Positions 8,202 to 12,457 of a stretch of 64,000 nucleotides of DNA are shown here, piece by piece. The stretch comes from Paracoccaceae bacterium Fryx2 (lineage in GTDB: Bacteria; Pseudomonadota; Alphaproteobacteria; Rhodobacterales; Rhodobacteraceae). Within the stretch, counting starts at the first letter, position 1; every line of letters begins with the position of its first letter. The notes below the pieces were generated by a model. The model made no database searches. It worked only from the letters and a program-made list of their open reading frames with translations, and had not been told where the DNA came from. Both the position numbers and the translations under genes were made by a program. The stretch is from positions 372,001-436,000 of the forward strand of contig JAVSGI010000003.1 of NCBI GenBank assembly GCA_032334235.1, given 5' to 3'.

Positions 8202-8213
8202 GTTTGCGCTAAA
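8202..8213. promoter_or_regulatory. degenerate LacI-type operator upstream of mdh
   Basis: GTTTGCGCTAAA matches the perfect palindrome TTTAGCGCTAAA upstream of sdhC at 10 of 12 positions and shares the flanking CC. It lies in the divergent spacer between mdh and a TauE-type exporter gene. Assignment as an operator is inference from this similarity only. Confidence 0.35.
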
Positions 8214-8326
8214 CCGGCGGCCGGGATGCGGCCTGCGGAGCAATTTGGCATACCAAGGCATACCAGACTTGGCGGCGATTGATTCGCGGCTGGCCGGCGG
8301 GCCGGGGTCCGCAGGAAGGAAGCGCG

Positions 8327-9067
8327 ATGGAAGGGCCGGTGTTCTGGGCGGTGGCGACGCTGGCGGCGGTGCTGGTGGGCCTTGGCAAGGGCGGGCTGCC
8401 GGTGGTGGCGATGCTGTCGGTGCCGCTGCTGTCGCTGTTCATCTCGCCGGTCGCCGCCGCCGGGCTGCTGCTGCCGATCTATGTGGTGACCGACATGTTC
8501 GGGCTCTGGGCCTACCGGCGCGATTTCGATCGGCGGGTGCTCTGGATCCTGGTGCCCGGCACCACGCTGGGGGTGGGCCTCGGCTGGGCCACGGCCAGCG
8601 TGGTGCCCGAAGACCTGGTGACAGGCATCGTGGGCGCCATCGGCGCGGCCTTCGCCGCAAACCTGCTGCTGCGCAGTTCCGCCGCGCCCGCACCGCACCC
8701 CGCCCGGCTGGCGCCGGGCCTGTTCTGGGGCACGCTTACCGGCTTCACCAGCTTTGTCAGCCACGCCGGCGCGCCGCCGTTTCAGGTCTACGTGATGCCG
8801 CTTCGGCTGGGCAAGGCGGTGTTCGCGGGCACCTCGACCATCCTCTTTGCCTATGTCAACGCCATCAAGCTGGTGCCCTACTGGGCGCTGGGGCAGTTTT
8901 CGCCCGGAAACCTCAAGGTCGCGGCCCTGCTGATGGTTCCGGCCGCCCTTGCGGTGCTGGTCGGCGTCCGCATGGTGCGCGCCCTGCCCGAGGCGCTGTT
9001 CTTCAAGCTGGTCACCTGGGCGCTGCTCGCGCTGTCGCTGCGGCTTATGTGGCAGGCGTTTGCCTAG
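8327..9067 (+). CDS. TauE/SafE-family membrane protein (putative sulfite/organosulfonate exporter)
   Basis: A 246-residue polytopic membrane protein of the TauE/SafE (DUF81) family. The repeated signatures [13 protein letters not shown] near the N-terminus and [18 protein letters not shown] in the middle are typical, with about eight hydrophobic segments. The ATG at 8327 is preceded by GGAAGGA at a good distance; the longer frame from 8279 has a hydrophilic, non-family leader. It is divergent from mdh, and no sulfur genes are adjacent, so the substrate is unknown. Confidence 0.88.
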
Positions 9068-9100
9068 ATCGGGCGGCAGGATCGGGTCGCCTCCGGGCGG

Positions 9101-9412
9101 TTAGGCCGGGTCGCCTTCGGGCGGCGGGGGCTCGACCACCGATTCAAAGCCCTGACCGCTGGCCACGATGCAGGTCGTGCCATCCGGCAGGGTGATCGAG
9201 ATCGTCCAGCTGCCATGTTCGGCCGAGGCGAACATCTCCATCACGCCAGTGCCGCCCGCCAGCCCGACCGCCTGCCGGGTCTCGCCATAGCGGTCGGACA
9301 GTTGCGCCAGAACCGCCTTGCGCGGCGCGCATCCGGGGTTGGCGTGGCCGACCTGCGCCACCATCGCGAGCGCGGCAACACCAAAGGAAAGTGCGAAGAG
9401 TCTTCTGGTCAT
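9101..9412 (-). CDS. small exported protein of unknown function
   Basis: A 103-residue protein with a typical signal peptide (cleavage expected near GHANPG). The mature domain has two cysteines, one near the cleavage site (GCAPRK) and one in TTCIVASG, which could form a disulfide, and ends in a proline/glutamate tail. The start at 9412 (MTRRLFALSFG) is chosen for the signal peptide. A short protein of this style is often left as hypothetical in Rhodobacterales. No function can be assigned. Confidence 0.7.
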   Translation of the reverse strand: MTRRLFALSFGVAALAMVAQVGHANPGCAPRKAVLAQLSDRYGETRQAVGLAGGTGVMEMFASAEHGSWTISITLPDGTTCIVASGQGFESVVEPPPPEGDPA

Positions 9413-9662
9413 CGAACTGCCTTTCCGGGATGGCGCACCGGGCTGTCCGCCGCCATGCACCCTGCCCTGTTGAAGGAAACTTGCCCTGTCGAAGGTGAAC
9501 CATGCCGTTCCGGCATTTGTTCCGATCATGCGCCGCATTCCCGCCGGCAGCGGCAACATCGCGCGGCCCGGGCGCAATTTTTCTGCATTGCAGCCAAAGT
9601 GGGCTTGCCGGAAGTGCCGCCGTTATGATCCACAGCGAAACATTCTTGCCTGGGAGAGAATC

Positions 9663-11102: not shown

Positions 11103-11306
11103 ATGAAGCTCTACCGTTTCCTGACCGAAGACGACACCTCCGCCTTCTGCCACAAGATCACCGCCGCGCTGAACACCGGCTGGCACCTGCAGGGCGAGAC
11201 GAGCTATGCCTTCGACGCCGCCCGCGGCGTGATGCGCTGCGGCCAGGCCGTGGTGAAGGACGTGCCCGGCATCTACAGCCCCGAGACCAGGCTGGGGGAT
11301 CACTGA
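11103..11306 (+). CDS. DUF1737 small protein
   Basis: A 67-residue protein. The core LNTGWHLQGETSYAFDAARG is typical of DUF1737, a small domain of unknown function. Its stop codon overlaps the start codon of mesaconyl-CoA hydratase by one base (TGATG), which implies translational coupling. The operon position between two ethylmalonyl-CoA-pathway genes is suggestive, but no activity is known to me. Confidence 0.8.
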   Translation: MKLYRFLTEDDTSAFCHKITAALNTGWHLQGETSYAFDAARGVMRCGQAVVKDVPGIYSPETRLGDH

Positions 11307-12337
11307 TGAAAACCAACCCCGGGCGGTTCTTCGAGGATTACCGGCTTGGCGAGACCATCGTCCACGCCGTGCCGCGCACGGTGAAGATGGGCGAGCGGGC
11401 ACTTTACCATGCGCTCTATCCCGCGCGCCACGCGCTCTATTCCTCGGATGCCTTCGCGCAGGCCTGCGGGCTGCCGTTCAGCCCGCTGGATGACCTGATC
11501 GCCTTTCACGTCGTGTTCGGCAAGACCGTGCCCGACATCAGCCTGAATGCGGTCGCCAATCTCGGCTATGCCGAGGGGCGCTGGCTGCAGCCGGTCTGGC
11601 CGGGCGACACGCTGCGGTCGGAAAGCATGGTGATCGGGCTGAAGGAAAACTCCAGCGGCACCTCGGGCGTGGTTTACGTCCGCACGCAGGGGCTGAACCA
11701 GCATGACGAGGTGGTGCTGGAATATGTGCGCTGGGTCATGGTGCGCAAGAACCGGCTGGACGCGGCCACCCCCGCCCCGGTGGTGCCGGATCTCGCGAAA
11801 TCGGTCGGCGCCGAGGCGCTGGTGGTGCCGGAGGGTCTCGATTTCACCCGCTACGACTTCGCGCTGGCAGGCGAACGGCACCGCTGGGGCGACTATGCGG
11901 TGGGCGAGCAGATCGACCATGTCGACGGCGTCACCATCGAGGAGGCCGAGCACATGCTGGCCACCCGGCTGTGGCAGAACACCGCCAAGGTGCATTTCGA
12001 CGCCACCAACCGCCCCGACGGCAAGCGCCTGATCTATGGCGGCCACGTCATCAGCCTGGCCCGCGCGCTGTCGTTCAACGGGCTTGCCAACGCGCAGATG
12101 GTCGTGGCGCTGAACGCGGGCGCCCACGCCAACCCCTGCTTTGCCGGCGATACCGTGCGCGCCTGGTCCGAGGTTCTCGACCACGCCGACACCGCCGCCC
12201 CCGGCGTCGGTGCCATCCGCCTGCGCCTTGTCGCCACCCGTCACGGCGCCGCCCCCTTCGCGCTGCGGGGTGCCGACGGCAAATACCTGCCCGAGGTACT
12301 GCTTGACCTCGACTATTGGGCGCTGATGCCGAAATGA
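11306..12337 (+). CDS. mch: mesaconyl-CoA hydratase
   Basis: A 343-residue protein with two MaoC-like hot-dog domains. It hydrates mesaconyl-C1-CoA to methylmalyl-CoA in the ethylmalonyl-CoA pathway for acetyl-CoA assimilation. Diagnostic stretches are FSPLDDLIAFHVVFGKTVPD in the first half and IYGGHVISLARALSFNGLAN in the second. It starts at the overlapping ATG after DUF1737. The arrangement malyl-CoA enzyme, NnrU, DUF1737, mch, then sdh matches my memory of the Rhodobacter sphaeroides order. Confidence 0.9.
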   Translation: MKTNPGRFFEDYRLGETIVHAVPRTVKMGERALYHALYPARHALYSSDAFAQACGLPFSPLDDLIAFHVVFGKTVPDISLNAVANLGYAEGRWLQPVWPGDTLRSESMVIGLKENSSGTSGVVYVRTQGLNQHDEVVLEYVRWVMVRKNRLDAATPAPVVPDLAKSVGAEALVVPEGLDFTRYDFALAGERHRWGDYAVGEQIDHVDGVTIEEAEHMLATRLWQNTAKVHFDATNRPDGKRLIYGGHVISLARALSFNGLANAQMVVALNAGAHANPCFAGDTVRAWSEVLDHADTAAPGVGAIRLRLVATRHGAAPFALRGADGKYLPEVLLDLDYWALMPK

Positions 12338-12405
12338 CCGCCGCTCCGGCCGTGCCCAGGGGCCCGCGCCGGGGCCGGGCCGGCCCGCGGCCAAAGCCGC
12401 CAGAC

Positions 12406-12436
12406 CGTGATCACGCCCCGGAAATTTGTGATCACA
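12406..12436. promoter_or_regulatory. tandem GTGATCAC palindromes upstream of sdhC
   Basis: Two perfect palindromes, CGTGATCACG (12406-12415) and TGTGATCACA (12427-12436), start 21 bp apart, the same layout as upstream of sucC. The 11-bp spacers of both pairs contain GAAA at a similar place. It lies about 150-180 bp before sdhC. It is probably an operator for a regulator of TCA-cycle genes. Confidence 0.7.
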
Positions 12437-12445
12437 TGGTCGGAT

Positions 12446-12457
12446 TTTAGCGCTAAA
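12446..12457. promoter_or_regulatory. LacI-type palindrome TTTAGCGCTAAA upstream of sdhC
   Basis: A perfect 12-bp palindrome with the central CG typical of LacI-family operators, 10 bp after the GTGATCAC pair. In alphaproteobacteria a LacI-family regulator of central carbon genes (CceR) is known; whether this is its site is inference. The CDS of such a regulator is not in this window, since the LacI-type gene at 47126 sits in a sugar operon. Confidence 0.5.

Follow-up and report, generated by a model that had tools for sequence, protein, structure and literature searches.

Which regulator recognizes two related palindromes that lie upstream of the succinate dehydrogenase (SDH, sdh) and malate dehydrogenase (mdh) genes of Paracoccaceae bacterium Fryx2, and does a second regulator share the sdh promoter with it? 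Both genes lie in a 64,000-nucleotide stretch of contig JAVSGI010000003.1 (positions 372,001 to 436,000), which is here called the window and whose own coordinates are used throughout. Most likely, the LacI-family regulator CceR/GapR has an operator in each palindrome; it would act alone at mdh and would share sdh, where it would activate, with the regulator AkgR. CceR, GapR and RSP_1663 are taken here to be one protein. The features on which the question turns are the following.

12446..12457, no strand: predicted CceR-type operator TTTAGCGCTAAA upstream of sdhC, centre 12451.5, 0 mismatches
8202..8213, no strand: predicted CceR-type operator GTTTGCGCTAAA upstream of mdh, 2 mismatches to TTTAGCGCTAAA
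7128..8090, minus strand: mdh, malate dehydrogenase (TIGR01763 above cut-off)
12587..12970, plus strand: sdhC, SDH cytochrome b subunit, first of the sdh genes (PF01127)

CceR-type operators at mdh and sdh

A preliminary description of this DNA had reported a perfect palindrome 10 base pairs (bp) past a pair of GTGATCAC boxes at sdhC and a 10/12 match upstream of mdh. Both were located as described: the second GTGATCAC at sdh ends at 12435 and TTTAGCGCTAAA begins at 12446, a gap of 10 bp, with 20 bp between the centre of TTTAGCGCTAAA and that of the proximal box, and GTTTGCGCTAAA carries the two mismatches. The sdhC start codon (12587, plus strand) stands 130 bp beyond TTTAGCGCTAAA, and the centre of GTTTGCGCTAAA lies 117.5 bp upstream of the mdh start codon (8090, minus strand).

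The palindrome pattern alone is suggestive but not decisive, because dinucleotide shuffling of the window also produced two or more matches to TTTAGCGCTAAA at up to two mismatches, in 2 of 100 runs. The exact TTTAGCGCTAAA occurs a single time in the 5.47-Mb genome, at sdh. Only two places genome-wide differ from it by one mismatch (C3:268515 and C3:323944); both fall inside open reading frames and are probably chance matches. If two mismatches are allowed, there are 34 genomic places versus 120 for the reversed pattern, and they include sdh and mdh as well as sites upstream of zwf, edd and cceR. The sequence context was examined for 26 of these 34. Likeness to TTTAGCGCTAAA was dropped as a motif measure, given the location of the one-mismatch places in open reading frames and the low CceR motif scores of most two-mismatch places whose context was examined.

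The CceR motif itself, tGTTAGCGCTAACa, was learned by de novo palindromic expectation-maximisation from 92 upstream regions of zwf, pckA and cceR in family relatives, with no sdh or mdh sequence in the training. Among the 63,987 window positions scored with this independently learned motif, the mdh palindrome ranks first (12.4) and the sdh palindrome second (9.0), followed by a third-best position at 8.7. The preliminary description had suggested a comparison with the known CceR motif and a genome scan; in the genome, zwf, edd, pckA and cceR all have sites that match the learned motif. Its opposition of a "perfect" sdh palindrome to a "degenerate" mdh copy was misleading, since the supposedly degenerate copy has the higher score. 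Judged by the motif, mdh has the better operator of the two, because the sdh site loses the outer G/C pair of GTTAGCGCTAAC on both sides. In Fryx2 itself, GTTAGCGCTAAC is found 47 bp before the ATG of zwf and again at edd (phosphogluconate dehydratase, TIGR01196, a fragment), and GGTTGCGCTAAC 163 bp before the ATG of pckA. Upstream of cceR, CGTTAGCGTTAACA and TTTTGGCGCTAACA are a further two sites of CceR type, with 46 bp between their centres (G000:C5:3036826-3036885; L024 1428-1487), through which cceR is likely autoregulated.

Three LacI-family proteins are encoded in the genome. The gene of one adjoins gyrB, outside the window; its product carries the LacI DNA-binding and sugar-binding domains (PF00356, PF00532, PF13377), resembles the gluconate regulators GntR/IdnR below the model cut-off, and has as its nearest solved structure 3kjx, of the LacI family (E 2.6e-159). 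Of 149 family genomes, 147 contain a match to this protein (E ≤ 0.001, paralogues included); among the matches listed, the best ones have 62% to 83% identity in most genomes. The distance between cceR and pckA is 15 kb in the relatives G091 and G051, in G091 as the locus numbers RSP_1663 and RSP_1680 would suggest; in Fryx2 the two genes are on different contigs. Given the sites at zwf, edd, pckA and cceR together with the top two window matches, the LacI protein acting on the palindromes is most likely CceR/GapR.

The portions of the literature cited here point the same way. RSP_1663 is a predicted controller of mdh, pckA, sdh and zwf-pgl-pgi with the motif [AGT]GTT N6-8 AAC[ACT] (PMC4344238), mdh is a GapR target in Rhodobacteraceae (PMC4052901), and the CceR regulon of Rhodobacter sphaeroides includes sdh (PMC11323563). 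The effector of CceR is described as 6-phosphogluconate (PMC4419725, PMC5507952). Of the published motif, one half fits the mdh site (GTT...AAA). The likeness to the CceR/GapR regulon thus comprises a LacI-family protein, a CG-centred palindrome and the targets zwf, edd, pckA and mdh, with sdh in R. sphaeroides; unlike in that regulon, the outer G/C pair is missing from the sdh operator of Fryx2, and the position of the sdh operator shifts between genera in helical steps. Cra/FruR of enterobacteria likewise belongs to the LacI family and has a dual role, as a repressor of glycolysis and an activator of gluconeogenesis (PMC4052901, in the part cited), but it has another ligand and another motif and is not orthologous to the alphaproteobacterial regulators.

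Conservation was assessed in two sets of relatives at a motif score of at least 8. The discovery set held 101 loci (the 100 best-matching places of 142 genomes with SdhC, plus the window), with usable upstream regions for 99 sdhC, 88 mdh and 64 sucC genes. The hold-out set held 79 loci from two retrievals (19 + 60), with 79 sdhC, 49 mdh and 31 sucC regions; sampling favours genera near the window's own, and the most divergent genera are under-represented because hold-out places were taken in rank order among the matches listed. In the discovery set a CceR site was present in 35/99 sdhC regions (4.5% of shuffles), 32/88 mdh regions (3%) and 15/64 sucC regions (4.5%). The mdh hold-out gave 15/49, hence 47/137 in both sets. 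The preliminary description had assigned the palindromes to a CceR-like protein and had considered that they might resemble no LacI-family site of the clade and be missing from orthologous promoters. The palindrome appears to fit the CceR operator, and relatives show an enrichment of the motif at both sdh and mdh.

That the two sites are mere chance palindromes is scarcely credible. The shuffles that gave two such matches, the 34 genomic matches at up to two mismatches and the location of both one-mismatch matches in open reading frames would agree with chance, but both sites are top window positions for a motif learned elsewhere, they stand in promoters of known targets, and the orthologous promoters are enriched. 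It is also very improbable that they belong to another regulator, whether one of the other LacI proteins (window 47126-48193, L003) or a non-LacI protein. Two highly conserved positions of the CceR motif are not kept at the sdh site, which would suit such an owner; however, the two other LacI proteins differ in their family matches, the window LacI gene sits by eye in a sugar transport/catabolism-like cluster, the mdh site retains one outer G, and control of mdh and sdh by CceR/GapR has been published or predicted (PMC11323563, PMC4052901, PMC4344238, in the portions cited). As a candidate binder, the window gene at 47126-48193 was rejected, with no specific NCBIfam model above cut-off and sugar-transport-like neighbours; the genes it adjoins read by eye as a sugar ABC transporter and a sugar catabolism cluster.

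Several observations speak against CceR at sdh. The outer G and C that the site lacks are 97% conserved in the motif, and its affinity may be low for that reason. No CceR site was detected at a score of at least 8 in 105 of the 166 sdhC regions of relatives that carry a GTGATCAC pair; with 61/166 having one within 100 bp, conservation is partial. Finally, the CceR regulon of Paracoccus denitrificans, as given in the cited part of PMC11323563, does not include SDH.

AkgR-type boxes and the sign of regulation at sdh

The GTGATCAC boxes next to the sdh palindrome have counterparts at sucC, and a candidate regulator is encoded about 6 kb from sdhC.

12407..12414, no strand: distal AkgR-type box GTGATCAC at sdh, exact match
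12428..12435, no strand: proximal AkgR-type box GTGATCAC at sdh, exact match, 21 bp from the distal box
5711-5718 and 5732-5739, no strand: AkgR-type GTGATCAC pair upstream of sucC, 21 bp apart
4410..5603, minus strand: sucC, succinyl-CoA synthetase beta subunit (PF08442, PF00549)
18541..19191, minus strand: GntR/FCD regulator, candidate AkgR (PF00392, PF07729)

Exact GTGATCAC occurs only four times in the window, as one pair at sdh and one at sucC. Counted at up to two mismatches over both boxes, and mostly at the same 21-bp spacing, the pair was found in 89/99 sdhC regions of the discovery set and 77/79 of the hold-out (166/178 together), and in 63/64 and 31/31 sucC regions, respectively (94/95 together). 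No pair was present in any of the 137 mdh upstream regions, and mdh therefore looks like a CceR-only target. Conversely, the sucC promoter of Fryx2 holds no CceR site (best score 1.5).

We presume that AkgR is the protein encoded by RSP_0981. In the parts of the papers cited, GTGATCAC is named as a motif at sites bound by AkgR, which activates transcription in R. sphaeroides (PMC6365646), and the GntR regulator RSP_0981 is predicted to act on sucCD, sdh and 2-oxoglutarate dehydrogenase (PMC4344238). The GntR/FCD gene of the window would be the counterpart of RSP_0981; in 16 of the first 26 rows of the matches listed, no more than 25 kb separate sdhC from the best match to this gene. The motif, the predicted targets sucCD and sdh, and a GntR/FCD gene near sdh are thus common to Fryx2 and the AkgR regulon as cited for R. 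sphaeroides; particular to the present data is that the box is paired, 21 bp apart, at sdh and sucC in nearly all examined relatives. Because GTGATCAC belongs to another regulator, AkgR (PMC6365646, in the part cited), the earlier proposal of two regulators acting on one sdh promoter gains support.

The earlier expectation of a repressor at sdh is more doubtful, as the position of the CceR sites relative to the promoter indicates.

12494..12499, plus strand: predicted -35 element of sdhC, GTGACT, of a conserved NTGAC form in relatives
12516..12521, plus strand: predicted -10 element of sdhC, TATTCA; predicted transcription start at about 12528

An NTGAC-type -35 is present in 145 of the 166 AkgR-paired sdhC regions (GTGACA or GTGACT in 137/166), and in 124 of these 145 it lies 61.5-64.5 bp from the centre of the proximal box. 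In rare sdhC groups this otherwise very conserved distance between the -35 and the AkgR pair is offset by about one or two helical turns. At sucC, a sigma-70-like scan gave no consistent conserved promoter, with an NTGAC -35 in 6/94 regions. Distances from CceR sites to the -35 were taken only where a promoter had a single GTGAC at 40-90 bp from the proximal box: the CceR classes at sdhC are centred about 12, 33, 43, 96 and 116 bp before the -35, and none of the 58 scored positions is downstream of it.

A repressor at sdh, blocking AkgR or RNA polymerase when bound, is consequently an unlikely role for CceR. Most LacI proteins do repress, as textbook knowledge holds, and steric competition is possible because the operator is close to the AkgR boxes; the absence of downstream positions nevertheless argues otherwise, as does the description of CceR as an activator of gluconeogenic enzymes (PMC11323563, in the part cited). 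The median positions of CceR sites relative to the start codon (zwf -40, pckA -137, mdh -118) fit repression at zwf, where sites are near the start codon, and activation at sdh, mdh and pckA, where they are upstream. Judged from site positions, CceR would therefore be an activator at sdh, mdh and pckA and a repressor at zwf. This split agrees with the dual role described for CceR: in P. denitrificans glycolytic enzymes are repressed and gluconeogenic ones activated, by analogy with R. sphaeroides (PMC11323563, in the part cited).

Two further groups of genes surround these promoters. Between sdhB and the AkgR candidate, the gene at 16684-17481 (minus strand) reads by eye as a Crp/Fnr-family regulator. 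Between mdh and sdh, at 9663-12337, are genes resembling malyl-CoA/citrate lyase-type enzymes (290 amino acids) and beta-methylmalyl-CoA dehydratase (343 amino acids), which recall the ethylmalonyl-CoA pathway.

Helical phase between the CceR and AkgR sites

Where does the CceR site stand relative to the AkgR pair in other genera? In the discovery set, 49 CceR sites with a score of at least 8 lie within 100 bp of the pair (sdhC and sucC together). Their positions form tight groups: ahead of the distal box at about 12, 22 and 33 bp, and beyond the proximal one at about 20, 30, 40 and 51 bp. With a turn of 10.5 bp, 46 of the 49 are in one half-turn (R 0.80, best period 10.7), the phase being fitted on the same data. 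In the hold-out, drawn from other genera with motif, threshold and phase fixed beforehand, 33 of 35 sites fell in the predicted half-turn, where half would be expected (binomial 1.8e-8, R 0.78), and the phase angle was -1.37 as compared with -1.34 in the discovery set. When positions are counted from the start codon instead, the sites cluster weakly (R 0.12). A third set, of 80 rows of named loci from which 11 flagged duplicates were left out, had all 35 new sites in phase; a few genera dominate it, and it was not counted as independent. In the sucC regions of some relatives, a CceR site is found in phase with the GTGATCAC pair.

These positions suggest that CceR sites shift across genera and keep their helical phase with the AkgR pair. 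We lean slightly towards a phase rule at the sdh and suc promoters of Rhodobacteraceae, by which the CceR operator relocates while CceR, AkgR and RNA polymerase would remain on one face of the DNA. Relocation would proceed by loss and gain of sites, or by insertions of about one helical turn, on either side of the AkgR pair. CceR would then be a position-tolerant but face-restricted co-activator, and a LacI-family and a GntR-family activator would be joined through DNA geometry.

The same pattern could arise from the shared descent of a few ancestral positions rather than from selection for one DNA face, an explanation that we consider possible though somewhat unlikely. It has in its favour that the position of the CceR site is constant within genera, one per genus, and that decoy motifs in the same promoters also cluster. 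For 200 filtered decoys, however, the mean R was 0.25 and the maximum 0.58, so that the real value of 0.79 exceeds them all. Furthermore, at both the sdh and the suc promoter a number of different position classes share one phase, and a FastTree phylogeny of 134 malate dehydrogenases implies at least 22 changes of position class among the 45 rows with a site. These changes argue for repeated relocation, though the rows are related and the count rests on a gene tree without a comparison to shuffles.

The phase rule also has results to its detriment. In an unfiltered decoy test, one of 103 decoys came near the real value (26.8 versus 31.2). A threshold-free profile gave a phase R of 0.80 at 10.5 bp for sdhC and a weak one for sucC (0.41 at 10.5, 0.54 at 11). 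At the strictest threshold, the best period in the hold-out was 9.0 (n = 17), with an R at 10.5 of 0.79. No description of a phase rule between CceR and AkgR was found in the open-licence papers searched.

A proposed switch between sugar and organic-acid growth

Combining these elements, the regulation of the locus may be pictured as follows. AkgR, a GntR-family activator, would bind both GTGATCAC boxes at sdh. Without 6-phosphogluconate, as in growth on organic acids, CceR would bind its operators, most likely helping AkgR to activate sdhCDAB, activating mdh alone, and repressing zwf and edd, where its sites are near the start codon. Sugar-derived 6-phosphogluconate would release it. Protein binding, the sign of regulation in Fryx2, the ligand and the reading of the phase as joint action from one face are what we infer from motif sites and their positions, together with the published work on relatives.

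Since control of sdh by CceR and predicted control of it by a GntR regulator in R. sphaeroides, and mdh as a GapR target in Rhodobacteraceae, are already in print, sdh and mdh of Fryx2 are best regarded as new members of a known regulon. Through the predicted sites, both would be subject to the switch by CceR between growth on sugars and growth on organic acids that has been published for R. sphaeroides. A detectable site in about one third of the AkgR-paired sdh promoters may help to account for the presence of SDH in the CceR regulon of some Rhodobacteraceae and its absence from that of others. If the phase rule is true, hundreds of sequenced genera would supply naturally occurring variants in operator position for a single pair of activators, and how a LacI-family protein activates transcription would become directly testable.

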